Shown piece by piece: positions 1,635 to 34,299 of a stretch of DNA of 64,000 nt (position 1 is the first letter of the stretch; each line of letters starts with the position of its first letter). Below the pieces are notes generated by a model. The model was not told the origin of the DNA and made no database searches. It saw nothing but the letters and a program-made list of their open reading frames with translations. This DNA is from Romanomermis culicivorax. Taxonomy: Eukaryota > Nematoda > Enoplea > Mermithida > Mermithidae. The stretch lies in assembly GCA_963922205.1 (NCBI GenBank), contig CAWUHX010000010.1:1736001-1800000 (forward strand), given 5' to 3'. Position numbers and translations under genes: made by a program.

Positions 1635-3112
1635 TGTCACGTGCCGCTCAATTCTCCAACGTCACGTGATCCCGATCATGCCGACATTTTGTTATTTTTT
1701 CATGTTTTGTTTATTACTCGATCATGCTTTCGTTTATTTCATTTTTACACATGCATTTTACGTTCGTTTTTATATTTTTCATGCATTTCTATGTTCCGTT
1801 TTGTTGTAGTTTTATTTCTTTACAAACGCGGGCTACAGTAGGCCCTTTAGCTAAAAACTTCCGCCAGTCGTGCTCCACGAGCACATGGCTATTTTTGGTG
1901 CGCTTCATGCACCTCTTATCATCAAAATTAGTGTCGTTTTTGTTACGCAAAAACGACTAGCTAAGAAGTTTTAGCTAAAGACGTTTATATGCTTAGCATA
2001 GGCACTGCAGCCGGCCTCAGTGCTAAACGCATGTGAACGAAAAATGTCTATGTGCTCATAGGCATCTTCTGCATCGCATCTAGCTGCAGAAGTTAGCTTG
2101 AGCGCCGAGAAACTCCGCCCAAGCTGCAGCTGTAGCCAAACATGTCCTTAAAAGGACATGTTTCTTTAGTTTTTCGCTCATTCTTGGGTTCACCAAGCTT
2201 TCGTCCGGTTGTAACTCCGCGTCCGCCGCCCTTCGTCGAATTTGCATATTTTTATTGTACACCCGTGCGTCCGCCGCCTTACTACCAATAAATTTGCATA
2301 AATTTACCCTTGTTTACTGCGTCCGCTGCTCCCCGCCTACAGTACCCCGCTGCCCATCAGTGCCAGGTGTCCGACCGCCCCGGTTCGTGAATTAAACGTT
2401 GGAGTTTCGCCTCCCGCTCGCTCCCGCTCCCTCCCGCTCGCCGCCGCTCGCCGCCGCTCGCCACTAGGACGCTTTGAGGATCGTATCCCCGCTCCCAGTG
2501 CCAGAAGACCGAAAGCATCCAGGGACTTGCCGCCCGTTGCGTCGTAATCGCTTGAGAAACAGGACTAGGTGAGTCTTCTCAGGGGATTATTGTTATTTGT
2601 GGGTTATTTGTTGGGAAATCCTTCCTAAGTCGGTTTCCCAAGGTTTCCACAGATAAGTAGGGCCTCCACCTCTCAGGTTCGGGCTAGAAGGGGCTGTCTG
2701 GTTCATAATCGGGTCCCATAAATTAGGTCATTTTACGGGTGACCCTGTCCCCACTCTCACTGAGTAGGACTCGGGGATTGTCGCACCTAGCCTGGCAGCG
2801 TTGTCCATTACCCTACAGCAAGACCCCCAAGGACACACATGAGAACCAACTATAGACCTCTCTATAGCCACCATTTGCCAGGTTAGGCCCCAACGCCAAC
2901 TTGGGAAGCCTGGGGAAAATGCCAGTATCCATCAGGAGTCACAGTCTATTACTCACTGTAATAGGATCAATCTGATATGGTTCACCATCAATGTGACGTC
3001 TAAAACACGGTATTACCTGATGAGATACCCAAACCTCCCCAGCTCTCCCAAATCCCCATGTCATACACGTGGCATGGCGAAAAATGTGACATCGATGGCG
3101 TAAAATGTGACA
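1635..3112 (+). repeat. 5' LTR (1478 bp)
   Basis: It is nearly identical to 16460-17924. It has a 13-bp insertion near 2341 that the 3' LTR lacks, and scattered substitutions (for example near 1807, 1957, 2078, 2397, 2632, 2839 and 2945). Ends are TGTCAC and GTGACA. The repeated CTCGC/CCGCTCG stretch at 2410-2462 is a short imperfect tandem. The promoter lies in here, but I cannot place a start site. Confidence 0.95.
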
Positions 3113-3131
3113 TGGCGAGGCTGGAAAATCG
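3113..3131 (+). other. Candidate primer-binding site
   Basis: The bases TGGCGAGGCTGG directly abut the LTR end and start with TGG, as expected for pairing with a tRNA ending in CCA. I could not match it to a specific tRNA. Confidence 0.5.
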
Positions 3132-3480
3132 ACCTTAAGTCTGGCACTCGCCCTTAAGTGCAAAAACTTTACCCTTGGGTCAGAACTACCCCCAGGTCGG
3201 GTCAATTCCCATTTTAAGTCGGACAAGCCCCCTTAAAATCGGGTACTGGCCATCCAATAAGTCAGAGACCCCCCCAAATTCGGGTTTACTGCCTAATGGG
3301 TCGGGAATGTCCCTTATTTTGGATTACCGCTACTGTAGGTCGGATACCTCCCCTCACGTCGCGTGTTATTACTGTAAGTCGGAAATTTTTCCTGTGCCAC
3401 CGAGAGTTATTACTGTAGGTCGGGAATTTATTCCTTAACATCAAATTAAATTACTGTAAGACGGGATTTGCCCTTACAAG
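3130..3480 (+). repeat. Degenerate array of AAGTCGG / TAGGTCGGGA units
   Basis: The words TTAAGTC, GGGTCAG, CAGGTCGGGT, TTTAAGTCGGA, AAATCGGGTA, TGGGTCGGGA, GTAGGTCGGA, GTAAGTCGGA, GTAGGTCGGGA and GTAAGACGGGA recur every 25-50 bases, mostly preceded by ACTGTA or TTA. Spacing is irregular, so this is a motif cluster rather than a clean tandem repeat. Confidence 0.6.
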
Positions 3481-4280
3481 TGATCTAAATGTGATCTATA
3501 TGTGTAAATAATTATCTCATGCGTGTGTATAACCCCCTATGAGTAATAAATTTCCCCTGAGTCGAGTTACTTATCCCCAGAGTCGAGTTATTTGTCCCAG
3601 AGTTGAGTTATATATCGAGTATTCTGTATTTCTCCTCTGATTCATTCTGTACATTCTGCATACTTAATCTGTGTTGTAAACTACCTTATCTGTTTCTTTT
3701 CCCTTATTTCCCCCCCTTCTCTAATCCTGGGTGGTATACTGTAGCCCTCCGGGTGGGTGCCATTACAGTACGCCTGTGCCCATTCCCGTACTGTAACTAC
3801 AGTATACCCATACGCGGGTACTGGTATCACAGCTGTAGGGGTTTACGGCCTCTCCTGGCTGTTGGTGGTCCGTGACCCCATGATACCGTACACCCTCCAC
3901 GTGTGATTCTGGACGTCATACGTGGCTGCGATTTGTTAATTGTGTACAGTATTTTTGTCTGTCGGCGGAAACTGTCGGAATTGCTCACTTTTCCAGCCCC
4001 AAAATTTTACACTGACTGTTTACACATTTAACACGCGTATGTCCAACTCTCGTATTCCCCGTCTTCGGTTGTTTCCCTTCCCTTTCCCTTTCGCGGTCAT
4101 CTGAGCGGTGTCGAAAAAAAAAAAAAAAAAAAAAAATTTTTTTGTTTTTCTGATGCCACCGCTACAGTATGACACCCTTACGTAAGTTTCTCTCTCCTTC
4201 TTCTCTACTTACTGTAAGGTCTGTTTCTTCTACTTTCGGGTTGTTGCATCTAGACCATAGACTTTACGGGTCATGTTCTT

Positions 4281-5318
4281 TGACGTCAGCAACGACAACG
4301 TTACGGGTTGTTGTTGTTGTGTGGTTCAGCCTCACAGATGCAACCACTGACGTCTGCAACAGCCGCTTCACTTGCTGTTGCTTTAAGGGGTGGGTAGCAC
4401 TCCGGGTTCTACTCCTGATGTCAGCAACCGACATTACGTGTTATTGTTTAAGTTAACACTTCCGCAGTAATGACTTCTGATGTCTGCAACAGGTGAAGCC
4501 AACGTTGTTGTAACAGGTTCGGCTGGTTCTCTGCACCCCATCTGTGACGTCAGCAATGGTGACGCACCGTGTCACTATTCAAAGATGTGCAGGTCTTACG
4601 GGTGCCACATCTGACGTCTGCAACAACTGCATCTCATGTCATTGACTTAAGGTGTCAGACCCTTGGTTCCACCTTTTGACGTCAGCAACGGCACCACCAC
4701 GTGATGCTGTATACCGATAGTTGGCTTCAGGGCCCTATTGCTGACATCAGCAATGACAATGTATCATGCTCTCGCAGCAGGAATTGAGGTTACATGATCC
4801 TATTTCTGACGTCTGCAACGGTAACATTACGTGCTACTGCAGGGGTTTGCTGGCCTTAGGCACTCACCCCTGGCGTCTGCAACTGCGACATGATACTTGA
4901 ATACTCTTATCCCAGGCACCTGCAGTCAGCACCAAGGTCATGTGTTGGTTCATACCCCTACCTTTTGACGTCCGCACCAGGTTACTGTCGGCCCTATGAG
5001 TATTCCACTTGAGATGTAGGTGGTTACTGGCGCATGGTCCTATCACCTACCTCTCTTGTCCAAGGGTTTGTGTGTGTCTGGGGGCTGATGCCTGGGAAAC
5101 ATCAGTCCACATACATACACTACCTGAGATGCTCGCTAGCCTGCATACTGATCAGGTTGTCCGCCCGGGTAGCGGCACTGTTGATCAGCACGTGGCTGTT
5201 TTCAAGCTTTAACTGCAGGTTTGAACGAGTTACACTCGGCCTCAGCTGGGTTGGTTGTCTGACTCGGGCAGGCAGCAGACATTTGCAGTCGGTACTGCCT
5301 GTGTCTGACGTCTGCAAG
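4281..5318 (+). repeat. 66-bp-period array of TGACGTC[A/T]GCAAC
   Basis: The motif starts at 4281, 4348, 4416, 4478, 4545, 4612, 4677, 4742, 4807 and 4871, with spacings of 62-68 bp. Weaker copies start at 4966 and 5306. The first seven alternate strictly between GTCAGCAA and GTCTGCAA. The core TGACGTCA is the CRE/ATF palindrome. Between motifs the sequence is mostly divergent, with some TTACG and TTGTTG words shared, so the motif is under more constraint than the spacer. Confidence 0.85.
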
Positions 5319-6855
5319 GGTTCGGCAATCTTCTTGTAAATTTCTTATCTAAATTCACTCATTCTCTTTCATCTCATCGAGCTGTCATACATAGATCTTC
5401 TTTAGTGTCCCCGCCGTAGTAGTGGTTCCCAAGGGACCGCGGCACAGCCTCCGGTTGGGCCTAGAGTGTATAGGACCCCCTGTCATATTACATTCACTCG
5501 AACGCCTTCGTTAACTGGCTTAACGATGCCCGCGCTAGAGTCGCCACTGACCCAGAGTCCGCCTCCGCGGTCCACCCTCTATTAGTCATGTAAGTAATAG
5601 GCACCGTTGAGTCCGCCTCAGCGAAGGTATTGGGTACGCCTCGATACATACTTTACACTCATATTCAATCAGGGACACCTTGTACCCATGATCCCTTAGA
5701 TGTTTTCGGGTGCGCCCTCGAAACATCCAGAGTAATTCATCCTAACTGACTGAGTGTGTCAGAATAGCACCCTTGGTACCCGTGCTCTTCCTCTCTTCTA
5801 CTGTGTGACCTGCGAACCTCACTTCATCTCAGTGATCGGCAAACCCGGCAACCAGCTGTATATAATACTCCTGGAGAGTGTCCGTTCTGTTCGAAATGCG
5901 GGCCCCCGTTTCGGACACGGCTGTAAGTTACTTGCGAATGTCGTCCAACACGGAACCTCCTGTATAGTCCATCTCACTATGCAGAGATCGCAATCGCTCC
6001 TGGCGAGTGAGGCCCGTTGCGTAACTGCGCGACCCCTTTGCGTAACTGGGTTTGTAAATTAGTTTTGTCCCTATTTATTGCTCCCTTTTGAGTTCACTTT
6101 CAGTTGCCCCTGTCCTTTTCACTTTATGCCACTTTATGGGCTACTCCTGGTGAGTAGGATCTTGCCGGCTACGAGTCCGCCTCGCCCCAAGGTTTGTAAA
6201 CTAGTACAGCGGTCGAACCTCCAGGAAAAAATCCCTCCTGAGCGGGTTTATCCGTCATTTATTCCTCGGCAGGAAAAACCGCCTCTTCTCTCCTTTCTAC
6301 ACGATCTTCTGTCCTCTTCAGCTATTCTAATTGCCGGGTCCAGGCCCCAACCCTACATTTTTGGTTGGGATCGATTCCCCCATATCTCAGGCCATGCCTC
6401 TGTCCATCACGGGCGACCAGATAAATTCCCTTCTGCGTCACCCTGATGTACTCTGATCTTACATCTTATAATCCTATTCCATTCTAGCTCCCTTTTCGTG
6501 GTCGCTAGTCTTAAGCTAAACCAAGTTTACGTCACAAACGCCGTCGCGCACGCGTTTCCCGAATTCACGCGCTCTTTCGCCGCGAATTCAAAAGTAGTAC
6601 TCACTTTCATTTTACACAATAGAGACACCCCGTCGTTCCTGCCGTCTCAGTACCCAGCCTGTACAGACCAGTGAGCCGCTCTCTATTCAATTTGACTTAA
6701 TTGCTTCACGGGCAAGGACGTCTGTTCTAACCACCTTACGGGAAAACGAACCCTCGGACATGAAGTCGGAAGCTGATCTCCCTTAACAGATCGAGAACAA
6801 AGTCCAGGCAGCATTTGAGAATGCTCTTGGACCCCTCAACCAAAAGTTAGAGGCC

Positions 6856-9302
6856 ATGAATGGTCGGAGGCACCCTCCCGTGTCCAGCTTTATGGCCCCT
6901 CCCACCTTCTCCGGTGCTTTTGGTGAGTCTATCACCGATTTTATGTCGCATCTTACTCGTTTCTTTACACTCCAGGGTGTAAGCGAAATGGATCATGCGT
7001 ATAAAATCGCCTTTCTGGAGTCATGCCTCACGGGTCCTGCTCTTGCCTCCTACCGGGACTTTAGCAGTAGCACTCCGATACCTACCCGCTACGAAGAGTT
7101 TACGGCTTTTCTACAGAGAGATTTTCCGGTAGGGCGCGACTCTGATCTGCATCAGCAGCTGATCCAAGATCGACTGCAGAAGCCGACAGAGTCCGCGATA
7201 GTCTACCTTGAGCACCTCAAGAGACTATCCAGGGTAGCGTATCCAGATCTCGCGACGGATGTCCGAGATTCTATCATCAAACCTATCTTTCTGCGAGGAC
7301 TGAAGCCGGTCCTCCGAGATAGTATCAAGTTTAGGGAGTTCACGACTCTTGAAGAGACACTCAAGGCAGCCTGTTACGCAGAATCCCAAATCTTTCGGGA
7401 CGAGATCCGGTACACTGCTCCATCTAATGCCGTTTTCTCTTCAGAACCTAAACACGCCGGATATAATCCCGATATGCCTAACAGAAGCACAAACGGTCAT
7501 CAGAGCAACGCTCCAACGTCGTCATCCTCCGCCGATGAGGTTCGCCGCTTGAAACAGGAAATGGCCAGGCTCACGGCCCCCGTAGCGAAGCTCACGGCCC
7601 AGCAACGTGCACCCGCGCCAATCCAACAGACGCCGCCTCCACAGCCGTCGACACCAAATCAGTCCGCCGGGCGACGCTTGTCGGGAGCACACCTTCAAAC
7701 GTGCTCCTTCCACGGACTGTGTACACATAGCGACGCCGACTGCCGGGCCCAGTGTCCCACCGGTGCCGCTCCCGGTAACAACGCCGCTAACGGTGGTCGC
7801 TGTTATTTTTGCCGTACACGTGCCCACCCCACGGACCGATGTGATAGGCCATGCCCTCATTGTCGTCAAGTGCGAGTGCACCGATCAACTGCCTGTCCGC
7901 AGCGCAATCCGGCAAACACGGGTGAGAATGTCTACCAAGATACTGGTTATTCTTCCCAGGGGACAAATGTGCATCATCAAAGAAATGGTTATCACCCTCC
8001 CAACGGGATAGGAAACCAATATCGGCAGCCCATACGCCGCAATAACGCCGTTGGGGCTACCGATGGCCCTCTTCATCCAGATCCTCTTGACCTGGATGAT
8101 GAGGCACTTGCTGAACACCTGACAGATTCTTCACAACAGTGTTATCCTGTCTGCGTAATCAGTATTGGATTTTCAGTGGTCCAAGCAGCCCAGGTACCCG
8201 TACCGATAAATGTATCGGACATACCGCTGCCACCACCACCACCAAAGTATGCGATGCCGGTCACTCTGGACCCCTCGACGACACCGCAGTTTGTTGGCCA
8301 CGCTAACATCCTCGCATCGTATCGCATTCCTAAAATCAAGACTGCCGAGCCAGCTCCAGCCGCAAACACGACGTCTTCGGCGCCACCGGCCCGCATCGTC
8401 CCTCCAGGACCACCACCTTCGATCCCCACGGATTCGGCTATGGAAGTCCTCGACCAGGTCGAGCCCATGAATTTGTCAGGTATACTACCTTCTTCTTCAG
8501 GTGATCCTAGAGTAGGAACCAGAAATCTATCTCAGTCCACGACTCTATCGATTTCTTGTTCACAGCGCCATCGCCCGTCCAAGACGCGATGTTGGCCATC
8601 TGGTCAGTCGACCTGGCCAAGAAATACCCGCATTTGCCGTGGACTCTGCTCAACGAGCCATCGAATGTCGAAGCGCTCACGGCCGCCGACGTCGTGCTTG
8701 CAGCACCCGTCTCAATGCCCCTCTTACGACCCGACATCGCCCGACAGGCACTCGAGTTCATTGCCAATGGGACTATCACCATCTCGCCCGTCGAAAAGTT
8801 CTTATTGGACGGGGAGCCATCCTCGCCTTCAGTCGATGCCGTCCGCCGAGCAGTCGAACAGGCCAGTCGGATCCTCCTGCCTGCTGCCGCCGCTACATCA
8901 CCGGCAACAGCGCCTCCTGTTGCCGCGATATCGCCAATGAAAATGGACATTACTGCTTCCTCGCCCCCGGCCAAGGAACCCGCAAATGATCCTACACCGC
9001 CGGCAACAGCCCAACATACATCGTCGGCAACAGCCCAAGTCAAATCGCCGGCACCAGCCCAAACGACATCTCCGACCGCTGCGACCAAGTCGCCCGTCGT
9101 CGAACACATGGCCGTCGACGAGACCTTACGTCCGGTTAACGAAGATGTCAGCATCGTTGAGGAATCTCCGTTCCCAACGGCAGTCGCCCCACGGTCGCCA
9201 AAAATCGGTATCCTCCGGGAAATCCACCCGTGCGGTGGATTGGTCCTCGATTTCCCCGGCCAGGAACCAATTTCGTCCGACAGCGACGAAGAAGAAATCT
9301 GA
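6856..9302 (+). CDS. gag: Gag polyprotein of the LTR retrotransposon (frame changes near 8480-8565)
   Basis: This is the structural protein of the particle. The 6856 frame has a retrotransposon-gag domain at about residues 15-190 and three Cys/His fingers: a CX2H variant at 283-296, a canonical CX2CX4HX4C knuckle at 316-329, and a CX2CX5HX4C variant at 333-347. Past about 8500 the protein-like reading switches to another frame, which runs to a TGA at 9300-9302 and ends in a Pro/Ala/Thr-rich region and an acidic tail. Removing a GT-AG segment at 8480-8565 (86 nt) connects the two frames; a natural frameshift or an indel could also do so. An in-frame ATG at 6760 is separated from this start by a TAA at 6784, so the true N-terminus may lie upstream. 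Confidence 0.85.
8480..8565 (+). other. Possible 86-nt intron in gag
   Basis: The donor is G|GTATAC and the acceptor is TTCTTGTTCACAG. The length is 2 modulo 3, exactly the shift needed to join the upstream gag frame to the frame open to 9302. Both frames look protein-like only on their own side of it. The alternative is a frameshift in the overlap between about 8511 and 8560. Confidence 0.45.
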
Positions 9303-12300
9303 CACTGCCCCTCAGGCCAGATTTGTGAAATTGAGTGAACACTTACAAATTACGTTTGTACAGTTGTTTTTGACAATAAAATTGACCTTGGTAGCATCAC
9401 TGTTTCTAGGGGTGAGTTTGTCAGCACCGGCGGCTCAGTATCAATTTTGCGGTCTCTCAAGAAGCGGACATCCACTTGAGTTACCCCAGCGTGTAGAGTG
9501 TAAACCACCGCAATCTTCATGGAGCCCGCGGCGCATGAATGTTACGGTGTATGTCCCTAGCTCAGACCCGATTACAGCCACAGCGTGGAAATGCACATTG
9601 CGCTCCCGCAAAGTCTGCACCAACACTGGTTTCTTCGGCTCTAGGGGCATCACTGCAGACGTCATCACCACTCAGCACTTAGCGCCTGCGGCATGCACGC
9701 TAGCACATCGCACTAAGATGTTTGGTTCACAAAAACTTGTCGGCATTCGCCCTGGCTTTTATAGCACAAACCAAACATTGGAAGTGATGTATGAATGGTG
9801 CTGCAGCGACGTCTGCAAGACAGTGACTAACCTCTTCATCGAGGAGGGACAAGTCGCTTCGTGGGACGGCACTACGGCCCTAAGCACCTTAGGCGATGTA
9901 GGTGGATGCAGTCCCACTGCAGGCCAGTGCACTACTCTAGACGGGGTCATTGTCTGGCCTGCGCAAAACTTCACGGCGCGGTGTCATTATCACCCCAAGG
10001 GAAATTACACTGCGTCCATGTCAGGGAACCACGTCATCATCGATGATCTACAGGTTGCCCTCAAGATCCCGGGAAACTCCTGCGTCTTCCAACTGTGCCC
10101 AGAACTACGTTCCACCACAGTCCGGACGGATCAGGGTCTTCTCCTTCGCATCCACGGGAGATACAATTTGACCCAAAACTTGTTCAGAGTGGCAACGGAC
10201 AGCCGTCCCGATCTTGTAAATGCCAAACTGAACTATCTGGCTCAGCAGATCAAGGAGTCGGAAATTAACGGTTTCCGGTTCACGTGGCTTGAGCTTTGCT
10301 CTCACGCTCAACGCTACCTTGATCTGACTTGGCAGTTGCTTCGCTTCGACCCCACCCTGGGTGCCCGGGCATTCCTCCAGAGGAATGACCTGACGGCGGA
10401 ATTCACAGGCGATGCGCTGACAATATGGCCGTGTCAGAAGGTCAACGCCACCTACATTTACCACTCGTACCGGGTGGGGAACGTTTGCTACAAGTACTTA
10501 CCTGTACAGGTTGGCGGCACCATCTACTTCGCCACCCCCGGTGGTCCGGATCTCATTAAATCTAGCCCAATTGTGCCGTGTCATCACCACTATGCAGGGA
10601 TTTTCCGAAATCGCTCGGGCTGGTTTACTGAGTCTGGCGCGGTCCATGTGAGCCACATCCCACTAGAACTCTACTGGAAGCAGCGTTTCAACATCACTCA
10701 CTTTGAGGCGCCGGCGCTCTTCCATGACCAGTTGGCAATGACCCCTTCAAACTTTGCCTTCTTTAAACAGTACGTTTACAAGACTGAGCAAATTGAAGCG
10801 GTACTCAACCGGCTGGTAAACTTTACCGCTGGTCTATCCCTGCAACCAGACGCCATTTACCAGGCCTTTGCAGGGGTAGGAACCGACATCAAGGCCTCTC
10901 TGGAAGGTGTCCGTTTGGCAGCAAACCATGTTATTACGGGTCAACAACACACCCTCGCCCAGGGCTTGCATGCTGTCCTGAGCGGGCCGGTCCAGTTGAT
11001 CTTTAACATCCTAATTACCCTGACCGTGCTGATGGGTGTCGGATACCTTGCCTATCTTGGTGTATCTTATTATCTCAGCTACCGTCTGCGGAGCAAACAG
11101 GTCAGGTTTGTTAGCCGTTTCTCCCCGTTGGGTCTTTACCGCAAAGTCCAACGCTGGATCGGTTTTCACTACGTGCAAAACGATGTGCCCTCCCAGCTTG
11201 ACCGAATCACACCGTGCTTCGTCGTGCTGCTGGATACCAAGGAAACTCCTGCTTTCCTTGACACGGGTTGCCCCCGCACTATCATTAGCCAACGCCTTCA
11301 TAAGGCCTTGGCTAAAGAAAGTCCGAAGGCGGTCATGGCATTCCAGCAACATCATGACTTTAACCCATTGATGAGCATCAATGGTAAAGCCGTTCATACC
11401 ATCCTTTCGGGACCATATGAAATCATGTTGCCCGGAAACTGCCAGCCGAACACACGGATCGATATACATCTCCATGTGTGCAAGACTACGTCTCCCTTCT
11501 GGGCACCTGTTGACCTCATACTCGGACTGGACTTCTTAGAACAGTTCAAGAACATTATGTTTGACTACCAACGTAATGTTTGTCGGCTGGACGCGGTAGA
11601 ATTACCCCTCCTGCTGACCACGCGGGAGATTGACCAGATCGACCCCTGGTGGGAGAACACCCGCGCTCTCTCGCCAAACTCACACAGGTCGGGATCACGA
11701 TCGCGGTCCAGGGCTTCGTCCATCTCTCGGCCACACTCACGGGCCTCCTCAGTTGCCTCATCACGTGGGTCAACTAGGGGATCCCGGGCCTCTTCTAGAC
11801 GGGCAAGTCGTCATCTGTCGACCTTGCACGGGTCAGGTTGCCCTCGACCTCCGCCTGGAACCTCTCCAGTTACGCTAGAGAAGGGCCGATACCGTGAGCC
11901 AAGTGATTCAGATGCTCCGACATCACCCGTGCCAAACGCTCCTCCGCTATCGGACACCGAGATTGAATCACTAGGAGCTACTCAGAGTCTGAAGGATCAC
12001 TCAGACCACGTACTAACGGTGCAGGATGAGTCCACCCTTCTGAATGACCCGGAACCCTCCATCGGATACGCTCTAGTAGGTCTTCTACGTCGTACGGGAC
12101 TGCCGATTCCAAAGCGGTCCGGTAAGGCCAAACACACTTGTGGTGCCACCACACCTGATTCCGGTCATGTGGTCACTGCTTTTTACCCAAATGATATTCG
12201 GACACCCCATATCAAAGTTCTCCTCAACAACTGGGTAGAAGCAAAGGCACTGGTCGACACAGGAGCTGTTTTCTCACTCCTGGACCACAAGTTAGCAGCC

Positions 12301-15300
12301 CAGCTGCCCAACTTGTCACTCTCACCAACCAGGGCCCGCCCTATCGCAGCCAATGGGTCCCCGATCCCACTGCTAGGAGCAGCCTACATCACAGTTACAG
12401 TGGCTGATGTCTCTGAACGGATTCAGGTCCAAATACAGGAGAACTGTTCAGCTGAACTGGTCCTTGGAACCAACTTCCTCGGCCGGTTCAATTGTGTCAG
12501 TTTGAACTGGGAGAAATCCTTCCTCCAGTTCAAAGAAAGTAGAATCCCCTGTGACGGTCTCATCCACAGCCCACCTTCTGCCCGCGGTGCTTTGCCCCTG
12601 AAGGACTTGGTGATTCTAGAGCCTCGCTCCCTGACACGATTCACTGTGCCTGTCCCACCAATCTATACGAACGTGCCTGAGGTGGCCTTCTTTCCAAAGC
12701 ACCTCACCGGATCTCAAAGACACGTATATTTTGCTGGAAGCGTGAGTACCGTGACCAACGGTCACATACCACTTCAGGTAGTCAACCCGAGTACTCATTC
12801 CGTGGTTCTCTACCCGCACACGACCATCGGTCATGTGCAGATGCATAGTGAGCCCTCACGGGAATCACTGGTCGACTCAGACACCGTCCTCGATCGTCAG
12901 TGGGTCGAGGCCAATGCTGTAATCTCACCGGACATCTCCCCTCGGGACCGGGCAGCCTTACTCGATCTGCTGGTTGCATACACCGACCTTTATGCTCTTG
13001 ATGAAAAGGACACAGGTTCCACTGATCTCATCCAGCACGAAATCAGCACGGGCGATGCCCGCCCAGTCCGCCGTTTCCCTTACCGGTCCTCACCTAAGGA
13101 AAAGGATCTCATCATGCAAGAGGTCAAGGCGCTCCAGGAGAAAGGTATTATTCGGCCAAGCACGTCTCCGTGGGCTACTAATACTGTCCTGGTGCGCAAG
13201 AAAAACGGTTCTCACCGTATGTGTGTTGACTTTCGTGGTCTTAACGAGGTCACGAAAAAGGATGTCTACCCTCTCCCACGGATAGATGACATTCTCGACA
13301 CACTCAAGGGTATGAAATATTTCACTACCCTTGACCAAGCTAACGCTTATTGGTCAATCCCGATTGCCGAGGCGGATAAGGAAAAGACGGCCTTAAATAC
13401 GCCTATTGGACTTTACGAATTCAATTATTTGCCTTTCGGTTTATGCAACGCGCCAGGGACATTTCAACGCCTTATGGACCTCCTCCTTACTGGAATCCAA
13501 TGGCGCACGGTTCTGACCTATCTCGACGACATTTTGGTGTTCGGGAACTCTCACACCCAAATGCTTGAGCGCCTGGCAGATGTGTTCGCCCATCTTCGCC
13601 GGGGTGGAATGAAGCTCAGACTGAGCAAGTGCAAATTCTCGCACTCAGAGGTAGAGTACCTAGGCTATCGCATCTCACAGAGCGGCCTAGAACCTGACCA
13701 AGCCAAGCTGGCCGCCGTCCAAAACCTACCCATTCCACAAAACGCCAAAGACATCAAGTCCTTCCTAGGCCTCGTGTCTTACTACAGGTGTTTCATCCCT
13801 GGTTGTGCCCGGCTCAGCGAGCCACTCACCAAGCTCTTACGGAAGGAAACTACTTTCCTGTGGTCAAAACCTCAGCAGGAGGCGTTTGATGAACTCCGCC
13901 GCCTGCTGACCAACCCTCCTATCCTGCGCCATCCGGACTTTTCGAAATCCTTTATCCTTCAAACTGATGCGAGTATTTCGGGGATAGGAGCGGTTCTTAG
14001 CCAGTTAGACGAACATGGATACGACCATCCTGTCGCGTACGCCAGCCGAGGGTTAACAGCGGCCGAGAAAAACTACTCCATTACAGAACTGGAGACTCTC
14101 GCTGTTGTCCATTTCGTCAAGCACTTTCGACCATACCTCTTCCAGCACGAGGTGGTCGTTCAGACTGACCATACCGCGGTCAAAGCAGTGTTGGAGAAGC
14201 CTAACCCCTCTGCTCGGATCGCTCGGTGGGGACTCGCGCTCGCCGAATTCAAACTGACAATTCGGCCGCGAAAAGGTCAGTCTAATGGTAATGCCGACGC
14301 ATTATCACGCCTGCCGGATCCTAACTCCCTCACCGGTCAGAGTATTGATGATACTCCCCTTTACAGACCTGAGGGGCATGTCATGATGATCACCGATGGT
14401 GCGCAGCACCTGGCGCGATCCAGGACCTTGACCGATGGTGTGCAGCACCTGGCGCGTTCAAGTAATTCAGCACCGATCACTGTTGGCGCGGAGCGCCTGG
14501 TACGATCAGAGTCTTATGCCGAGATATACGTCGGTGCGCAGCACCCCGACCTTTTCGCTGCTCAGCTGGAGGATCCGGAGTTAGCCGACATCATTCGCTC
14601 TCTTAAGCCTCTGGGCGACCAGAATGATGTGCGAGGCTACCATCTGTTGGATAACGTTCTTCAGAAATGGACAGGCGAGTCCAATAAGATCGTCATACCC
14701 AGATCCATGGTTACTACCATTATCCGGGCTCATCACGATGACATCTTAGCGGGACACTTTGGTGCTAAACGTACTGCGCGGCTCATTGCTCGCAGATACC
14801 ACTGGCCCTCCCTCAGTCGGGATGTCAAGTCCTTCTGTCAGCGGTGTGATCTTTGCCAACGGAATAAGCCCGCTCGACAGAAAACCACTGCGACCCTGAA
14901 ACCTATCACCATCACGGGACCGTTTCACCGGGTAGGTGTCGACTGTATGGGACCAATGACCACTAGCGAAGCTGGCAACCGTTTCATCGTAGTCTTTATC
15001 GACTACTTTACGAAATGGGTCGAGGCTTTTGCTACTCCGGACATCACTGCGCACACCATAGCCCGGCTGTTTGTAACGCAAATTGTCTGCCGGCACGGGG
15101 CACCGCAGATTCTTCAGTCAGATCGTGGCACTGATTTCACATCAAAACTGATGACTGAGATCACTGCGATCTGCGCAACGAAGAAAATCCACTCTACCGC
15201 CTATCATCCGATGACCAACGGCGAGGTGGAGAGAGCTAATCAAACGCTAGCCACACGGCTACGTATGTATGTCCATCAAGGACATACCGATTGGGATGAA

Positions 15301-15900
15301 CACCTACCATACGCTGTGTTTGCCGTCAATATCAGCATGAATGAGTCAACAGGGTACTCGCCCTTTGAACTCATGTACGGTCGCACACCCATGCTCCCTG
15401 TTGATGCCGCGCTCTCGTTCAACCCTCCGGCCCATATCATTAATGTTTCCTCATATGATATGGAGGTCAAGCGTCATTTCACGAATGCGTTAACCTTAAT
15501 CCAGAGTCGGATCGAGAAAGCACAGGAAGCCTATGCATGGTCGTACGACCGGAAGGCGCATGATGTCTCGTACAAAGTAGGGGATCAGGTGCTCCAACTG
15601 CGCACCTCCAGCAAACGTGGACTCACTCCTAAATTGCTGCCCATCTACGATGGACCCTACCTTGTCACAAGTGTGGCATATCCCAATGTCACACTTCGTT
15701 TCGAGATGGATCAGGAAGACACTGTACATGTCAACCAGCTTCGACTTTATGTGTCCCCTGAACAACCGAGTGAAGCAGAGGATACACCTCCCACTTTACA
15801 GGCAACAGGTTCGGCACCCTTATTGTATCCCTCAATAAGCCGGGACTTTACACCGAACCTGATTGACCCACATCTTGATGCAGAGGTCCCCGACCCGTAA
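8986..15900 (+). CDS. pol: Env-Pol polyprotein: glycoprotein, two retropepsins, RT, RNase H, integrase
   Basis: One frame stays open for 2304 codons. The first 110 residues overlap gag in another frame and look like shadow sequence. The likely protein starts near 9316, after a CCCCTCAG acceptor-like site or by +1 shift at the gag stop. In order: hydrophobic leader (126-150), Cys-rich ectodomain, membrane segment (671-699), first retropepsin with DTG at 759-761, Ser/Arg linker (about 900-945), second retropepsin with DTGA at 1091-1094, RT with catalytic D1450 and YLDD at 1512-1515, RNase H with D1661, integrase with a zinc module from H1916/H1917 and D1986, D2046, E2082 (D-35-E), then a GPY motif at 2223-2225. 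All catalytic residues are present, so the enzyme part looks intact. Confidence 0.93.
9316..11130 (+). other. env: Envelope-like glycoprotein region, upstream of protease
   Basis: This region lies between gag and the first protease. It has an N-terminal hydrophobic stretch ending in a signal-peptidase-like Ala-rich site, nine N-X-S/T sequons, 17 cysteines all in the first two thirds, and a C-terminal membrane segment (about 10996-11080) followed by basic residues. That is the plan of a type I viral fusion glycoprotein. I cannot assign its family from the sequence alone. Capture from an RNA virus glycoprotein is a hypothesis. In known gypsy-type errantiviruses env follows pol, so this order is unusual. 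Confidence 0.7.
11190..11640 (+). other. First retropepsin-like domain (DTG)
   Basis: An FLDTG motif (D759) follows a beta-rich stretch, and an LILGLDFL motif lies about 84 residues later. This is the usual spacing of a retroviral-type aspartic protease. The domain begins about 50 residues after the membrane segment, so it would be membrane-tethered unless cleaved. Confidence 0.75.
12190..12560 (+). other. Second retropepsin-like domain (DTGA)
   Basis: An ALVDTGA motif (D1091) and an ELVLGTNFL motif about 70 residues later define a second, diverged protease domain. It sits in the usual place just upstream of RT. The sequence differs strongly from the first domain, so this is not a recent duplication. 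Confidence 0.8.
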
Positions 15901-16459
15901 CTCAAGATGCATTCTCTTCATTGTCCCCGCTTACGGACGAGGACGTCCTTTTTCGAAGGACCGCCGTGCCCCTCACGAAGTATCCACTCTTGTCCATGCT
16001 GGATCTTAGTGGATAGAAGAGAATGTTCAGCAACCAAAGCGTCACGCCTTAGGCGCATCCTCACGCGATAGCCTACACCTCACTGGGTGCATCCTCTGCG
16101 ATAACCCGATAATCTGTGCCTCACTGGGTGCATCCTCTGCGATAACCGGAAAATCTGTACCTCACTGGGCGCATCCTCTGCGATAGCCTACATCTTGCCC
16201 TGAAAATTTTTCTTTTCTGTGTTCTAGACTGTCGCACAGGATATTCAATGGCTGCAACTTCACGCATCAACAACCCCCGGTTACCATACCGCAGGACGAA
16301 TTACGATCAAAGAAGGCTCCATTTGCCGACAACCCAACGGACCTATTCGACCACTCCCGCCATCACACCTTGGAATGACCTACGACCATGGACACGCCGT
16401 ACAAAACCTCACTACTAACGACTGCAAGGACGAGGACGCCCTTTTTCGAAGGACCGCCG
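15901..16459 (+). other. 3' untranslated region with duplicated pre-LTR motif
   Basis: The block ACGAGGACGYCCTTTTTCGA, continuing AGGACCGCCGTG, occurs at about 15939-15970 and again directly before the 3' LTR (about 16429-16460). The unrelated-length element at 20798 has ACGAGGACGTTCAACTTCGG followed by a purine run at its own 3' LTR, so this block is the plus-strand priming region. Here the purine tract is weak. Confidence 0.55.
16050..16195 (+). repeat. 41-bp tandem repeat, about 3.5 units
   Basis: CTCACTGGGTGCATCCTCTG followed by CGATAACC recurs at 16081, 16122 and 16163 with a period of 41. A degenerate unit precedes them at about 16045. Confidence 0.85.
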
Positions 16460-17924
16460 TGTCACGTGCCGCTCAATTCTCCAACGTCACGTGATCCCGA
16501 TCATGCCGACATTTTGTTATTTTTTCATGTTTTGTTTATTACTCGATCATGCTTTCGTTTATTTCATTTTTACACATGCATTTTACGTTCGTTTTTATAT
16601 TTTTCATGCATTTCTATGTTCCGTTTTGTTGTATTTTTATTTCTTTACAAACGCGGGCTACAGTAGGCCCTTTAGCTAAAAACTTCCGCCAGTCGTGCTC
16701 CACGAGCACATGGCTATTTTTGGTGCGCTTCATGCACCTCTTATCATCAAAATTAGTGTCGTTTTTGTTACGCAAAAATGACTAGCTAAGAAGTTTTAGC
16801 TAAAGACGTTTATATGCTTAGCATAGGCACTGCAGCCGGCCTCAGTGCTAAACGCATGTGAACGAAAAATGTCTATGTGCTCATAGGCATCTTCTGCATC
16901 GCGTCTAGCTGCAGAAGTTAGCTTGAGCGCCGAGAAACTCCGCCCAAGCTGCAGCTGTAGCCAAACATGTCCTTAAAAGGACATGTTTCTTTAGTTTTTC
17001 GCTCATTCTTGGGTTCACCAAGCTTTCGTCCGGTTGTAACTCCGCGTCCGCCGCCCTTCGTCGAATTTGCATATTTTTATTGTACACCCGTGCGTCCGCC
17101 GCCTTACTACCAATAAATTTGCATAAATTTACCCTTGTTTACTGCGTCCGCTGCTCCCCGCCTACCCATCAGTGCCAGGTGTCCGACCGCCCCGGTTCGT
17201 GAATTAAACATTGGAGTTTCGCCTCCCGCTCGCTCCCGCTCCCTCCCGCTCGCCGCCGCTCGCCGCCGCTCGCCACTAGGACGCTTTGAGGATCGTATCC
17301 CCGCTCCCAGTGCCAGAAGACCGAAAGCATCCAGGGACTTGCCGCCCGTTGCGTCGTAATCGCTTGAGAAACAGGACTAGGTGAGTCTTCTCAGGGGATT
17401 ATTGTTATTTGTGGGTTATTTGTTGGGAAATCCTTCCTAAGTCAGTTTCCCAAGGTTTCCACAGATAAGTAGGGCCTCCACCTCTCAGGTTCGGGCTAGA
17501 AGGGGCTGTCTGGTTCATAATCGGGTCCCATAAATTAGGTCATTTTACGGGTGACCCTGTCCCCACTCTCACTGAGTAGGACTCGGGGATTGTCGCACCT
17601 AGCCTGGCAGCGTTGTCCATTACCCTACAGCAAGACCCCCAAGGACACACACGAGAACCAACTATAGACCTCTCTATAGCCACCATTTGCCAGGTTAGGC
17701 CCCAACGCCAACTTGGGAAGCCTGGGGAAAATGCCAGTATCCATCAGGAGTCACAGCCTATTACTCACTGTAATAGGATCAATCTGATATGGTTCACCAT
17801 CAATGTGACGTCTAAAACACGGTATTACCTGATGAGATACCCAAACCTCCCCAGCTCTCCCAAATCCCCATGTCATACACGTGGCATGGCGAAAAATGTG
17901 ACATCGATGGCGTAAAATGTGACA
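16460..17924 (+). repeat. 3' LTR (1465 bp)
   Basis: This is the partner of 1635-3112, with TGTCAC and GTGACA ends. It is followed directly by the ATAG target duplication at 17925-17928. Confidence 0.95.
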
Positions 17925-17928
17925 ATAG

Positions 17929-20797: not shown

Positions 20798-21625
20798 TGT
20801 AACGTACATGCTGAAGCAATAATGTAAATACAAATTGTACAGTATGTGATATTCATTTATTAGATATATTTTCATTTATTAATCTATCGTCTCAAGGGTG
20901 TCTGGAATTCACACCCAAACATTCTTATAAATTTATGTGAAGCACTTTATTTTGATCTTCCCACACCCCATCGACCCAATTAAAGACACACATAATTATT
21001 TCCACATTGGCACCTGGCCCTCGTAATGCACATGAAGATACACATTTTGTAGGTACAATAATCCCCTCCAAAACGCGTAAACACACCTGCCTATGTAGAA
21101 AGTACAGAAATTCCGACCCAGACAAACGATTTAGGAGGAATGCATGGAAAACCGAAAAACACATGAAAAACTAAAAATCATAGGCGGCAAAGCATACTGT
21201 AGGTTAAAAGGCATGTGAGCGCGGAAATTAAGAATAAAGTAAAGCAAGAGGCGTGGCGAAAGAAGCATACAGAAGGCGGAAACAGGTAAGCGAAGCAGCG
21301 ATTGGTGGAAGAAAATCGACGGAAACACGACCTCCCGCGACGCCCAGGGAGTGGCCAAAACGTTGTATAAAAGAGAAGAAAAGCGTGATTTTTATGATTA
21401 TTTTGGTCGCGATTATTATTCGTGGGTTTTTTAATTCGTGGTTCGCATTCCTATTTCCTATTGCAAGCAAACGTGCCGTTCGAATTGTGTATTGTCGACG
21501 TTCAAGCGACCGTCGATCACCCGTTGTTATTGTAATCGTACCGCCCGCGCCCCGTCCCGTTATTTACCCCGCCGTATCGACCGATTGGTCCAAGTAAAGT
21601 ACCTCACAGAAATCTGGTCGTTACA
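20798..21625 (+). repeat. 5' LTR of the gag-only element (828 bp)
   Basis: It is nearly identical to 24122-24948. It contains a TATA box. A candidate primer site (TTGGTGACCG) begins about 5 bases after its end. Confidence 0.95.
21366..21373 (+). promoter_or_regulatory. TATA box in the 5' LTR
   Basis: TATAAAAG sits about 250 bp before the LTR end, in the position of a U3 promoter. The same octamer is at 24689-24696 in the 3' LTR. Confidence 0.65.
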
Positions 21626-21776: not shown

Positions 21777-24146
21777 ATGACCCACCATACACGAGACCAC
21801 TTAGGAGAAATTGTAAGAGAGCAAATCAACGAACTTTTTGCAGAAAATTTTCGAACTTTACACACACAATTGAGCAAAAACACTATGAATCCCACCCTGA
21901 TAGAGGATTTAAGAACGGCCAACATCTGTAACAGTATGACAAACAATTTTTATGCAAAACCTACAGTATTTACGGGAGGAGTAACCCAACATTTCGGCCA
22001 ATGGAGCAAGCGACTAGAACAGTTCATGATACTACAAGGCATGAAAGATACTGACGAGCAACTCAAATTAGCATGTTTTGAAATTCATTTGGGTGGTGCA
22101 GCATTAGCAAAATTCAAAAGTTTAGAAAATTCTGAAAACCCACCCCAAACGTATGAACAGTATAAAACTGCATTACAAGCATGTTTCCCCGACCACAGAG
22201 ACACAGATTTACACCAACATTTTTTGCATGAACGGAAACAAAAAAGTTCGGAAACTGTCATTGAATTTTTGTTTGACCTCGAGCATCTAGCGACCCTCGC
22301 CTACCCCAATTTCAATTCAGAGGCACGAGAAATGCTAATCAAACCCCTTTTCATGGAAGGCATGCAGACCGAAATTAGAGAGGCACTCAAGTACAAACGA
22401 TTCACCTCCCTAACAGACATGTCTGATGAAGCAGCTTATGTTGAACAACAAATTTTCAGAAACAGATTGAAATCTAGCCCCATACCCCTCATATCCCCTG
22501 AATCGGAACCCATCCTTTCATTAGGCAATCACACTGAACAGCAGGGAATCCTACATAAGTTAGAACAAGTCATGGAGTTGCAATTGCAAATACTGCGAAA
22601 TTCTCAAACCCAACCCCAGCATGATAACAGTAATTCGAGACAGATCACATGTTTTCAATGCAATCAAGTCGGGCATTTCGCCAGAAATTGTAATTCACCA
22701 GGTACTCAAAAGTCATGCCAAATTTGCTTTAGGAGTAATCACATGACTCGAGACTGTAAAAGCAGATGCATTCACTGTTCTCAGACTGGTCACAGATCCA
22801 GCCATTGCATGTCAAAAAGCTACTCAAATGCAGAATGTTTTCTTTGTAAGCAAAAAGGTCACACGAGTAGATATTGCCCCAACCAAATGACCCCTAACGT
22901 CCAAAATCGCGTTGAAGAGAGACTACCCCCACCACAAATGAACATTGATGTCCCAGTCACGTACTCCACATTGCCCACTGTCCAGCATCAACCTCAACAT
23001 GCTTTAAATACAGTCCTGCCCAGCAGTCATAAGCAGTTTGACCCCCAGTATGTCCTTGACATACCCCTTCCTGATACAAGCAGCACTTCAGAAATTGCAT
23101 CACCAAAAAGCAGTGACATGTTGAAATCCAAACTCCTCCAGCCAAAAATTGCACAGAAACATAAACATCCTGAAACCAGTGAGACGTCCAAACCTGACCC
23201 AGCATGCAAAAAGGAACGCCCAATGTTTTCACAATTGCAGGACCTTCCCACAGACCCCAACACATTCCCCAGGCGAAAAACTTCTCTTCCTACCCCCAAA
23301 GCACGAAAAAATCGTAAAATTCATTTTGCAGCTAGCATTTTCCAAAGTAAAAATAGTGGTATCTGCAGTCCTGTCTCAAACGACGTCAGCAAGCCCCAAA
23401 TCCCCCATCCTGATACATGCATCGACCCTGTTTCTTGTCCCCTCCCAATGACAGACCCCAACACATTCCCCAGGCGAAAAACTTCTTTTCCTACCCCCAA
23501 AGCACAAGAAAATCGTAAAATTCATTTTGCAGCTAGCATTTCCCAGAGTAAAAGTAGTGGTATCTGCAGTTCTAGCTCAAACGACGTCAGCAAGCCCCAA
23601 ATCTCCCATCCTGATCCATGCATCGCCCCTGTTTCTTGTCCCCTCCCAGCGAAAAATTCAACCGCCCAATCTCATTTTCCCACCCAAAACAAACAGAAAC
23701 GTCTTCATACATTCCCATGGGTAAAAGGCAAAGTAGAATCGACCAAAACTGACAGGATTGAAACGGAAAAAGCTGAGTTAATCAATTTCTTATCCAAATA
23801 TCAGCTCCTTCACACTGAGCCAAAAACACATGTGAGTCACAGGCCACTTGTGTCCCACAGCATTGGTACAAGTAATTATAAACACAGACACAGACCCCTT
23901 TTTCGAAAACCACCAAAAGCAAAACAAAGCATCAAACACAAAGTTGAGCAATTTAAGAAAGCTGATGTTATCAATCAAAGCACATCCCCTTCATGTAAAA
24001 CCGGCAGTTCAATCGTTCAGACAAATTCCCTATTCCCCCTATCCCTCCAAGTCTTCGACCCCAAAGCCCTCTCTCCCTCGACCCCTTTGAACGAGGACGT
24101 TCAACTTCGGAAGGAGGGAAATGTAACGTACATGCTGAAGCAATAA
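21777..24146 (+). CDS. gag: Gag protein of the non-autonomous LTR element
   Basis: This intact 789-residue frame has a retrotransposon-gag domain at about residues 60-230. Four canonical CX2CX4HX4C zinc knuckles lie between residues 292 and 367, followed by a long Pro/Ser/Lys-rich tail. Its core resembles the gag at 6856 in layout (HFLHERKQK versus QLIQDRLQK region), and both have an IRE/IEN-type coiled N-terminus. Within the tail a 201-bp unit is duplicated in tandem in frame (23253-23453 and 23454-23654). The frame reads through the purine tract into the 3' LTR and stops at 24144-24146. I chose the first ATG, which lies about 150 bp after the LTR. Confidence 0.92.
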   Translation: MTHHTRDHLGEIVREQINELFAENFRTLHTQLSKNTMNPTLIEDLRTANICNSMTNNFYAKPTVFTGGVTQHFGQWSKRLEQFMILQGMKDTDEQLKLACFEIHLGGAALAKFKSLENSENPPQTYEQYKTALQACFPDHRDTDLHQHFLHERKQKSSETVIEFLFDLEHLATLAYPNFNSEAREMLIKPLFMEGMQTEIREALKYKRFTSLTDMSDEAAYVEQQIFRNRLKSSPIPLISPESEPILSLGNHTEQQGILHKLEQVMELQLQILRNSQTQPQHDNSNSRQITCFQCNQVGHFARNCNSPGTQKSCQICFRSNHMTRDCKSRCIHCSQTGHRSSHCMSKSYSNAECFLCKQKGHTSRYCPNQMTPNVQNRVEERLPPPQMNIDVPVTYSTLPTVQHQPQHALNTVLPSSHKQFDPQYVLDIPLPDTSSTSEIASPKSSDMLKSKLLQPKIAQKHKHPETSETSKPDPACKKERPMFSQLQDLPTDPNTFPRRKTSLPTPKARKNRKIHFAASIFQSKNSGICSPVSNDVSKPQIPHPDTCIDPVSCPLPMTDPNTFPRRKTSFPTPKAQENRKIHFAASISQSKSSGICSSSSNDVSKPQISHPDPCIAPVSCPLPAKNSTAQSHFPTQNKQKRLHTFPWVKGKVESTKTDRIETEKAELINFLSKYQLLHTEPKTHVSHRPLVSHSIGTSNYKHRHRPLFRKPPKAKQSIKHKVEQFKKADVINQSTSPSCKTGSSIVQTNSLFPLSLQVFDPKALSPSTPLNEDVQLRKEGNVTYMLKQ
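24105..24121 (+). other. Polypurine tract before the 3' LTR
   Basis: CGGAAGGAGGGAAA immediately precedes the TGTAAC start of the 3' LTR. It is preceded by the ACGAGGACGTTC block also found in the other element. Confidence 0.8.
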
Positions 24147-25129: not shown

Positions 25130-25552
25130 TCATACAAATGCTACATGTTTTTCCACTAAATCGTTCAATTGAGAAGCGAAAATTTCGCTGTTTATTTCGT
25201 CGTTCAACGGCGCCAGCCTATTTTTCGTAACATAAGGAACGTAAATTTCAGCGTAAATTTGCCTCAATAAGTCATGCACAGACGGTGCATTACGGTCCGT
25301 ATTCATCACAAATTTGAAATTCGTCGGCGTTTCGAAATATGTCATTTTGTATTGATTGGTCGTGAAACTTCGAACCGTAGCTTTGCAATCAAACGGCGCT
25401 AATTTTGAAGAAAATGATTTTAAAGAAATTAACATTCCGTACAATAATTTATTCTCTTCCGACGCTTGAACGCGCGATTTTCTTGAACGTTTCCATTCTC
25501 GGTAGAAAATACAAGTGCCGTTTCGGTCAAAAATGTATAAATTAAATATCAT
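25130..25552 (-). CDS. TRAPPC1: Trafficking protein particle complex subunit 1 (Bet5 homologue)
   Basis: TRAPPC1 is a longin-fold core subunit of the TRAPP tethering complexes, which act as Rab1 exchange factors between ER and Golgi. The 140-residue product opens with NLYIFDRNG and has LLYGMLISLKSF, KMTYFETPTNFKFVMNTD and YVPYVTKN, all family landmarks. Human TRAPPC1 has 145 residues. It is a single exon. The start is the ATG directly before IFNLYIFDRNG. A more upstream ATG (25621) would run through a splice-acceptor-like tract and add 23 residues without family match. The gene follows mL41 on the same strand, about 375 bp downstream. The gag-only LTR element lies 180 bp past its stop. Confidence 0.95.
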   Translation of the reverse strand: MIFNLYIFDRNGTCIFYREWKRSRKSRVQASEENKLLYGMLISLKSFSSKLAPFDCKATVRSFTTNQYKMTYFETPTNFKFVMNTDRNAPSVHDLLRQIYAEIYVPYVTKNRLAPLNDEINSEIFASQLNDLVEKHVAFV

Positions 25553-25570
25553 TGTGCCTGGAAAGAGGGA
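25553..25570 (-). other. Splice acceptor just upstream of the TRAPPC1 start
   Basis: On the minus strand TTCCCTCTTTCCAG is followed by GCACA and then the ATG. It fits either the 3' end of a 5'UTR intron or a spliced-leader addition site. Confidence 0.55.
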
Positions 25571-25905
25571 AAATGTAAGTTTTTTAAACGGAAAGTAAAA
25601 CTTAGTAACAAATGGTGTCAAACTGTGATTTTCTAGAGCTGATGAAAAGCAATGCAGAGAAAGTACCTCTTAACTTTCCTATTCTCAATGAAGTACTAAA
25701 CAAAAGATGGTTTCTTAATTCACCTATCACCACAGCTTTTTCCGCAAATTAATCTGTAATTAATAAATTTTATAAAAATCGCCAAATGCCGAGCACCGCA
25801 GCGCCTAAGAGCAACAAAAAATTTATTGTATAATTCTTAAAATTTGCAGTAATCTTGATACAGGCCTACTACCAACTTTAAAAAAAAGCAAACTTGACGC
25901 AAAAC

Positions 25906-33378: not shown

Positions 33379-33709
33379 GGGTAAATTACGGATGGCAGTG
33401 ACCACCGCAAATTTTTTTGTGCCAAAATTTTGGCACAAAAAAACACTGATTAGGGACGCGCTTTATTGTCGAAAGTCAACGAATTTGGAAATCTAATTTG
33501 AGTTTATTTTTCCTTCAAAATTTTCCTTAGGCTTAGGCTTAGGGTACAGCAGCTGCGCCCGAAGGGCGCAGCGCTGTTGAGGCTCTTCCAAATTTTGGCG
33601 CTTTTCCCATGCATAATTTCACTTGTTCTTTCTTCCATTCATTGTGAAAACCCCCAAAAACCGGCGTCAGAGAAATTTCGGCGTGGCCACCGCCATCCGT
33701 AGAAATTTC
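33379..33709. mobile_element. 331-bp MITE inside the LINE endonuclease
   Basis: It is flanked by the exact 8-bp duplication TATATCGG (33371-33378 and 33710-33717). Inverted ends share TACGGATGGC and TG(A/G)CCACCGC. It contains a 32-bp perfect palindrome at 33412-33443. Confidence 0.88.
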
Positions 33710-34299
33710 TATATCGGAAAAATTTGAAGGTTAAAATGTCTAAAATAGCCCCGGAAAAATCTCTACCCGATGTTGTAACTTTTGAAATTATTTTGACTGG
33801 TGTCAAACTTAAATGCATACTCCGTTATAGACTACCCAGATATGACATTGAACTTATGGGTAAATTTATATTGCTTCTTGAATTTTATGTTGCAGATAAT
33901 TCCAAATGTATAATTCTTGAAGATTTTAATCTACCATCTTTGAAACAGTATGGATATTCTTTCCATATTGACAATTTTGCCCTTCCATTTTACAATTGTT
34001 TGACAAGAAACGGTTTTGAGCAATTTGTAATGAAACCAACTCGTGGCTATAATTTTCTGGATTTAGTATTCTGTAATTTCCCTGGTCTTGAGAATAATTG
34101 CACCACAGGGGAAAATTTTTCTACGAGTGACCATTGTACTGTCAATTTTAGTATCAATGTTAGAATCAAGGATAAAATCATTTATGATGATAAATTTGAT
34201 TTCAGGAAAGCTGATTATGAATCTCTTCAAATCTATTTGGCAAAAGTCGATTAAACAGATTTTTTTGAACAATGCATTACGACTTCTATCTTGTCTTTT

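Follow-up and report, generated by a model that had tools for sequence, protein, structure and literature searches.

The question raised by this locus is how an envelope-like glycoprotein can stand upstream of protease, reverse transcriptase (RT) and integrase in one reading frame. The window analysed here is a 64,000-nucleotide (nt) stretch of the genome of the mermithid nematode Romanomermis culicivorax (assembly GCA_963922205.1, contig CAWUHX010000010.1, positions 1,736,001 to 1,800,000 of the forward strand), and the frame belongs to a Ty3/gypsy long terminal repeat (LTR) element at 1635-17924, 16.3 kb in total, with its coding parts on the plus strand. An earlier note on this DNA had described the arrangement as an Env-Pol fusion starting at 8986, and the frame at 8986-15900 was indeed open over 2304 amino acids (aa), encoding an envelope-like ectodomain, a transmembrane (TM) segment, protease, RT, RNase H and integrase without a stop. 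While Env before Pol in one frame stood, the start did not, as gag precedes env and the layout is Gag-Env-Pol. Taken as a whole, we consider it probable that unspliced RNA yields a Gag-Env-Pol polyprotein and that removal of an 86-nt intron yields Gag with an acidic tail.

The first line of evidence is the comparison of genomic copies. An env search of the source genome (595 contigs, 359 Mb) produced 4217 first-look candidates, of which 72 matches were scored, and the gag search of the same genome gave 84 scored matches. In a search bearing on the host, insect odorant receptors (PF02949) were not matched, but since none of the 14 controls matched either, that result carries no weight. The sole stop of the gag/env/pol frame between 6856 and 15898 sits at 8938-8940, and none of the other scored copies had a stop at that place (72 compared). 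Position 8986 is merely the first ATG past this private stop and not the true start, with gag upstream in the same frame. The frame was open over at least 3091 aa in 47 of the 72 scored copies, and 15 of 20 copies were open throughout 1.5 kb before env, env itself and 1.5 kb after it. Given that other copies are open and that the stop at 8938 is private to the window copy, the usual layout of the element is a single Gag-Env-Pol frame, ending at 15898-15900, which the window copy carries broken in gag by one stop. The gag reading stretch of this copy spans 6856-8940, and its first exon part before the intron (6856-8479, delimited by Pfam and codon usage) encodes a Ty3 capsid-like portion, with a Ty3_capsid match at aa 25-173 (E value 2.1e-7, 31 bits, cut-off 29.1), and a Cys/His-rich portion. 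Frameshifts in gag of the window copy were considered and dropped once the two open frames were seen in other copies as well, the stop at 8938 alone being private to it.

The envelope block (9316-11130) was delimited by Pfam, genome copies and fold. Our recount agreed with the nine N-glycosylation sequons, 17 cysteines, leader and TM segment reported before, and placed the two hydrophobic segments at aa 127-145 (9364-9420), an internal signal-like segment, and aa 671-689 (10996-11052), the TM segment. Between them, PF24664 (Monjiviricetes_fusion) matched aa 410-560 (10213-10665; E value 2.3e-13, 49.5 bits, cut-off 27), and the predicted fold was of the gB/VSV-G type. By this Pfam family and a predicted fold resembling gB and rhabdovirus G, env is assigned as a class III fusogen; it shares both features with the class III viral fusion proteins (herpesvirus gB and rhabdovirus, nyavirus and chuvirus G), and differs from them in being encoded within a retroelement polyprotein. 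A single sequence compared with PDB gave only a weak gB match (E value 0.093), and a first structure model built from four sequences was poor (predicted local distance difference test score, pLDDT, of 47) and was not used for search. The ratio of nonsynonymous to synonymous polymorphism (pN/pS) was 0.09 in the ectodomain and about 0.1 in env overall, which indicates purifying selection. The earlier note had named two findings that would refute its reading, a one-off insertion of the block in the window copy and a host domain. We found no point in favour of this explanation and give it practically no weight, so that both refuting conditions fail: the 605-aa env was present at full length and 98-100% identity in all 72 scored copies (stop-free in 71 of them) and recurred in the long protein relatives described below, and the profile search returned a viral fusion protein with a class III fold.

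The second line of evidence comes from the stretch directly before env. From about 8540 to 9300, codon usage favoured a frame other than the gag/env frame. This second frame, -1 relative to gag, forms an open stretch at 8511-9302 recognized by its openness, pN/pS and codon usage, and remained open to its TGA (9300-9302) in 71 of 72 copies. For polymorphisms found in at least two of the 72 copies, pN/pS was 0.27 in the second frame and 2.97 in the gag/env frame; the corresponding values in the 20-copy set were 0.22 and 2.96. The first ~105 residues of the 8986-15900 frame lie in this segment, where the other frame is the constrained one. In 65 of the 72 copies the gag/env frame was nevertheless open across the 800 nt preceding env, with no shared stop changes observed versus 5.2 expected given the constraint of the other frame (Poisson 0.006), and synonymous shuffles of three copies left the gag/env frame open in about 2% of cases and the second frame in 0.3-0.4%. 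Given that the second frame is constrained, that the gag/env frame avoids shared stops and that shuffles rarely leave either open, it appears that both are in use, the second frame for the protein sequence that it encodes and the gag/env frame for staying readable. The second-frame tail also contains a YPHL string near 8620, which we take to resemble the YPxL late-domain motif.

Entry into this second frame would be provided by a GT-AG intron of 86 nt (8480-8565, plus strand; CAG/GTATAC ... TTCACAG/CG, with slashes at the splice boundaries), which is read in the gag frame when unspliced and was exactly missing from 2 of the 72 copies. Its length is 2 modulo 3, and its removal shifts gag into the constrained frame. 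Neither intron-less copy had a second-frame stop left in the 984 nt preceding the TGA at 9300, while second-frame stops were present in the corresponding stretch of the two intron-bearing copies checked. Such an exact GT-AG loss in a reverse-transcribed element reads as the trace left by spliced RNA. The two intron-less copies were 2.22% apart; over the piece, one showed no difference from an intron-bearing copy and the other was nearest to another such copy at 1.21%, and because each is closest to intron-bearing copies, the intron was probably lost twice rather than once; recombination between copies could mimic two independent losses. A 56-nt intron ending at 8535, considered as a candidate, was superseded by the exact 86-nt loss.

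That only two copies lack the 86 nt would also suit a single deletion spread between copies by recombination, since template switching could place it on another background. We regard this as very unlikely, as the boundaries are exactly GT-AG, one such deletion among the 800 possible 86-nt deletions in the piece (four start positions read GT-AG, but the shared CAG makes them one deletion), and the loss brings gag into the very frame that is shown to be coding by its constraint. Programmed -1 frameshifting in place of splicing is likewise very unlikely: the second frame does have the -1 register and is constrained, but no X_XXY_YYZ heptamer was seen by eye in the entry region, and the two copies with the exact GT-AG loss speak against it.

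In the reading that we favour, unspliced RNA would be translated into a single polyprotein consisting of Gag, a linker, class III Env, a first protease-like domain (PR1), a second protease (PR2), RT, RNase H and integrase. Gag would be cytosolic, the internal signal segment would thread the Env ectodomain into the secretory pathway, and the TM segment would bring the chain back, so that Pol would again be cytosolic and Env would form a lumenal loop. The parts would be freed by the proteases on the cytosolic side and by signal peptidase on the lumenal side. In the part of the RNA that loses the intron, gag would instead continue in the second frame, and its product would be Gag extended by an acidic tail of ~245 residues that ends at 9302, just before env. 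Splicing would thus choose between Gag alone and Gag-Env-Pol, an inversion of its ordinary retroviral role, which is to produce Env. What the sequences themselves show is one continuous frame, an env of class III, the loss of the intron, and selection acting on env, on both protease domains (PR1 and PR2) and on the second frame.

Several points weigh against this reading. The proposal is drawn from genome sequence, with protein expression inferred, and the 72 scored copies were chosen by env similarity, which favours intact copies. The donor CAG/GTATAC is only a moderate fit to the consensus. Stop avoidance in the gag/env frame is modest, with 5 stop changes observed versus 11.7 expected when single-copy changes are counted, and 7 of 72 copies have a gag/env-frame stop before env (two of them through intron loss). 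The second-frame tail had no Pfam match (E value up to 5) and nothing meaningful in the relative P0005, and the splicing switch may be peculiar to this element family. Finally, all 72 copies have, right before the env signal, an identical acceptor-like site at 9315 (CTGCCCCTCAG at 9303-9315) that a separate Env-Pol RNA could use.

This last point leads to the most serious rival, in which Env-Pol or Env would come solely from a separately spliced RNA using the 9315 acceptor, the continuous frame with gag would be a by-product and the full polyprotein would never be important. There is no in-frame ATG near the env signal, and a leader exon could supply one; Cer1 is a Ty3/gypsy element with a same-frame spliced protein, as far as the accessible text of its description goes (PMC10309623). 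However, the constancy of the 9315 site says little, the copies being so alike, the Gag-Env-Pol frame avoids shared stops across the overlap, and it runs uninterrupted in 47 of the 72 copies as well as in the long relatives. We therefore judge this rival doubtful, although it keeps a larger share of our expectation than the deletion and frameshifting explanations. Returning to the polyprotein reading, a fuller version of it would be an inverted scheme in which a Gag-Env-Pol chain, threaded through the membrane in the manner of flaviviruses, is made from unspliced RNA, intron removal opens the overlapping frame for Gag with its acidic tail, and the lineage is old and widespread. We regard this version as slightly less likely than not. 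If true, Gag and Pol would be tethered to the membrane by the Env loop, which would also fix the Env:Pol stoichiometry. The age and spread of the lineage would follow from relatives that share the order with env sequences only 30-40% identical to that of the window.

These relatives were found by protein searches. Among the matches listed for the env protein search, at env size (7994 candidates scored), there was one stand-alone relative, P0004, without a TM segment. The search at whole-frame length gave P0005 and P0006, and a search with the P0005 env gave P0007, P0008 and P0009; these searches select by length, which favours fused forms in finding P0005-P0009. In all five long relatives, PF24664 scored above cut-off inside the long frame, preceded by CCHC motifs and followed by an aspartic protease motif, and three (P0005, P0006 and P0008) had RT and integrase matches, with RT identities to the window of 61%, 39% and 42%, respectively. 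A protease Pfam match at cut-off was obtained in P0005 only among the five, and Gag was called from sub-threshold Pfam matches (zf-CCHC above cut-off in P0005), the CCHC motifs in five of five and capsid-region alignments at 25-58%. P0007 was partial, and P0009 had no gag, RT or integrase Pfam match. The best solved-structure match for pol of the long relatives was Ty3 Gag-Pol (7q5b; E value 2.1e-170), from a profile in which the row of the window covers env only. IMG/VR yielded no relatives when scanned with env, with the full alignment or with RT. Residues 645-703 of P0009, between Gag and Env, gave a weak RRM-like match (E value 0.12).

The Pol part of the frame contained YLDD and, as a correction to the earlier note, two DTG sites, in PR1 near aa 755 and in PR2 near aa 1090. 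PR2 (aa 1078-1167; 12217-12486) matched gag-asp_proteas (E value 1.2e-9) with a pN/pS of 0-0.07. It was followed by RT (RVT_1, aa 1403-1563; 13192-13674; E value 6.5e-34) and by Pfam matches to RNase H (aa 1626-1755; 13861-14250) and integrase, with an Integrase_H2C2 zinc finger and rve core (aa 1904-2075; 14695-15210). PR1 (11203-11595), an extra retropepsin-like domain, had a weak Pfam match below cut-off (E value 0.0087) and a pN/pS of 0.12-0.18, and fell in an alignment gap in P0005 and P0006. The polyprotein thus holds two protease-like domains, with PR1 directly behind the Env TM segment and under purifying selection.

In errantiviruses (gypsy and its kin), env follows pol as a separate open reading frame (ORF). 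The present element shares with them an env-bearing Ty3/gypsy pol, whereas its env precedes the protease within one frame. Other gypsy-like elements are likewise described as expressing env from a separate ORF (PMC6431247). The suggestion in the earlier note that no standard element class has this layout did not hold, as the planarian Burro elements (GYPSM1), giant Gypsy-like LTR elements, are reported in the accessible text to carry env in frame between gag and pol, are called the first case there and are proposed to be integrated proviruses (PMC6431247). By that description, Burro resembles our element in having Gag, an in-frame env with mononegavirus fusion glycoprotein matches and then protease, RT, RNase H and integrase in one polyprotein, but exceeds 30 kb, with a 4,873-aa ORF1 and extra BCL2, BIR, MATH, ankyrin and dUTPase-like domains (PMC6431247). 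None of these extra domains had a Pfam match in gag, env-pol (E value up to 1) or the tail of the present element, which is 16.3 kb long, carries an additional protease-like domain and has a Gag tail in the second frame that the intron would switch on. We classify the element as having a Burro-type layout within Ty3/gypsy, on the basis of layout and with no claim of sequence kinship to Burro.

Other parallels are partial. Anakin, a mosquito BEL-Pao element with a chuvirus glycoprotein, similarly carries a captured glycoprotein of negative-strand RNA virus type according to its available description (PMC7642597), but has a BEL-Pao pol, whereas Pfam and solved-structure matches here were of Ty3 type. 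A 2023 follow-up survey of arthropod genomes, in its available part, reports that no Gypsy element had clearly captured such a glycoprotein (PMC10084718); the present element documents a class III fusogen under selection in a Ty3/gypsy element. For the Gag splicing switch, the nearest parallel is BARE, a Ty1/copia element of plants described as a single-ORF element with a spliced subgenomic RNA for Gag only, but without env and of another superfamily and host (PMC3735527, in its accessible portion). Cer1 of Caenorhabditis elegans, in the excerpted account, is a Ty3/gypsy element without a gag-pol stop in which splicing adds an exon in another frame, and differs in that its extra ORF follows pol and is not a fusogen (PMC10309623). 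A second Gag-Env-Pol case besides Burro was not found in the open-licence literature searched for this layout, as far as its accessible text goes. The layout is thus not new; what exceeds the descriptions found in those sources is its compactness here, its spread and the intron switch, with none of the literature searches directed at splicing in elements that carry env. These results show the Gag-Env-Pol order, formerly published once for giant planarian elements, to be a repeated, selected arrangement with compact members, and the frame-changing intron offers a testable account of how Gag could be made in excess by such an element.

The assignment to retrovirus-like Ty3/gypsy LTR elements (Metaviridae) is based on LTRs, target-site duplication (TSD), capsid and pol order. 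The 5' LTR (1635-3112, ends TGTCAC...GTGACA) and the 3' LTR (16460-17924), both on the plus strand and delimited by comparison with each other, have TG...CA ends and are flanked by identical 4-bp TSDs, ATAG at 1631-1634 and 17925-17928, within the 4-6 bp of Ty3/gypsy elements; a Ty3-type capsid and the pol order of protease, RT, RNase H and integrase agree with this. The two LTRs (1.48 kb) were 98.6% identical, with seven mismatches and one gap over 1479 aligned columns. A putative primer binding site, beginning TGG directly 3' of the LTR (3113-3132, plus strand), is proposed by position only, and a scan of the window for tRNA and Rfam families gave no matches. The leader (3113-6855), 3.7 kb between the 5' LTR and gag, is long for a Ty3/gypsy element, has no open stretch above 127 aa on the plus strand and might hold leader exons.

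The family is young and present in many copies. LTR divergence was 0.48% in the window copy and 0.14, 0.34, 0.41, 0.48, 0.48, 0.75 and 1.64% in seven of ten other fetched copies, while in the remaining three one LTR was absent from its expected position, truncated or only partly readable. A 4-bp TSD was found in six of the eight copies with both LTRs readable, including the window copy, and not in C24 and C69.

Elsewhere in the window, both flanks of the element (1-194 and 21214-21405) share a repeat at 87% identity that represents a further repeat family. A second retroelement lies at 21777-24146 on the plus strand, with a 789-aa gag-like ORF, two CCHC stretches, a Retrotrans_gag match and an internal 201-bp tandem repeat. 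At 33703-34251 (plus strand), a weak, below cut-off match to Exo_endo_phos_2, an endonuclease-reverse transcriptase family, likely marks a decayed non-LTR element. On the minus strand, a single open stretch at 25133-25669 gave a strong Sybindin match (TRAPPC4-type, E value 8.7e-37) and is probably a host gene.
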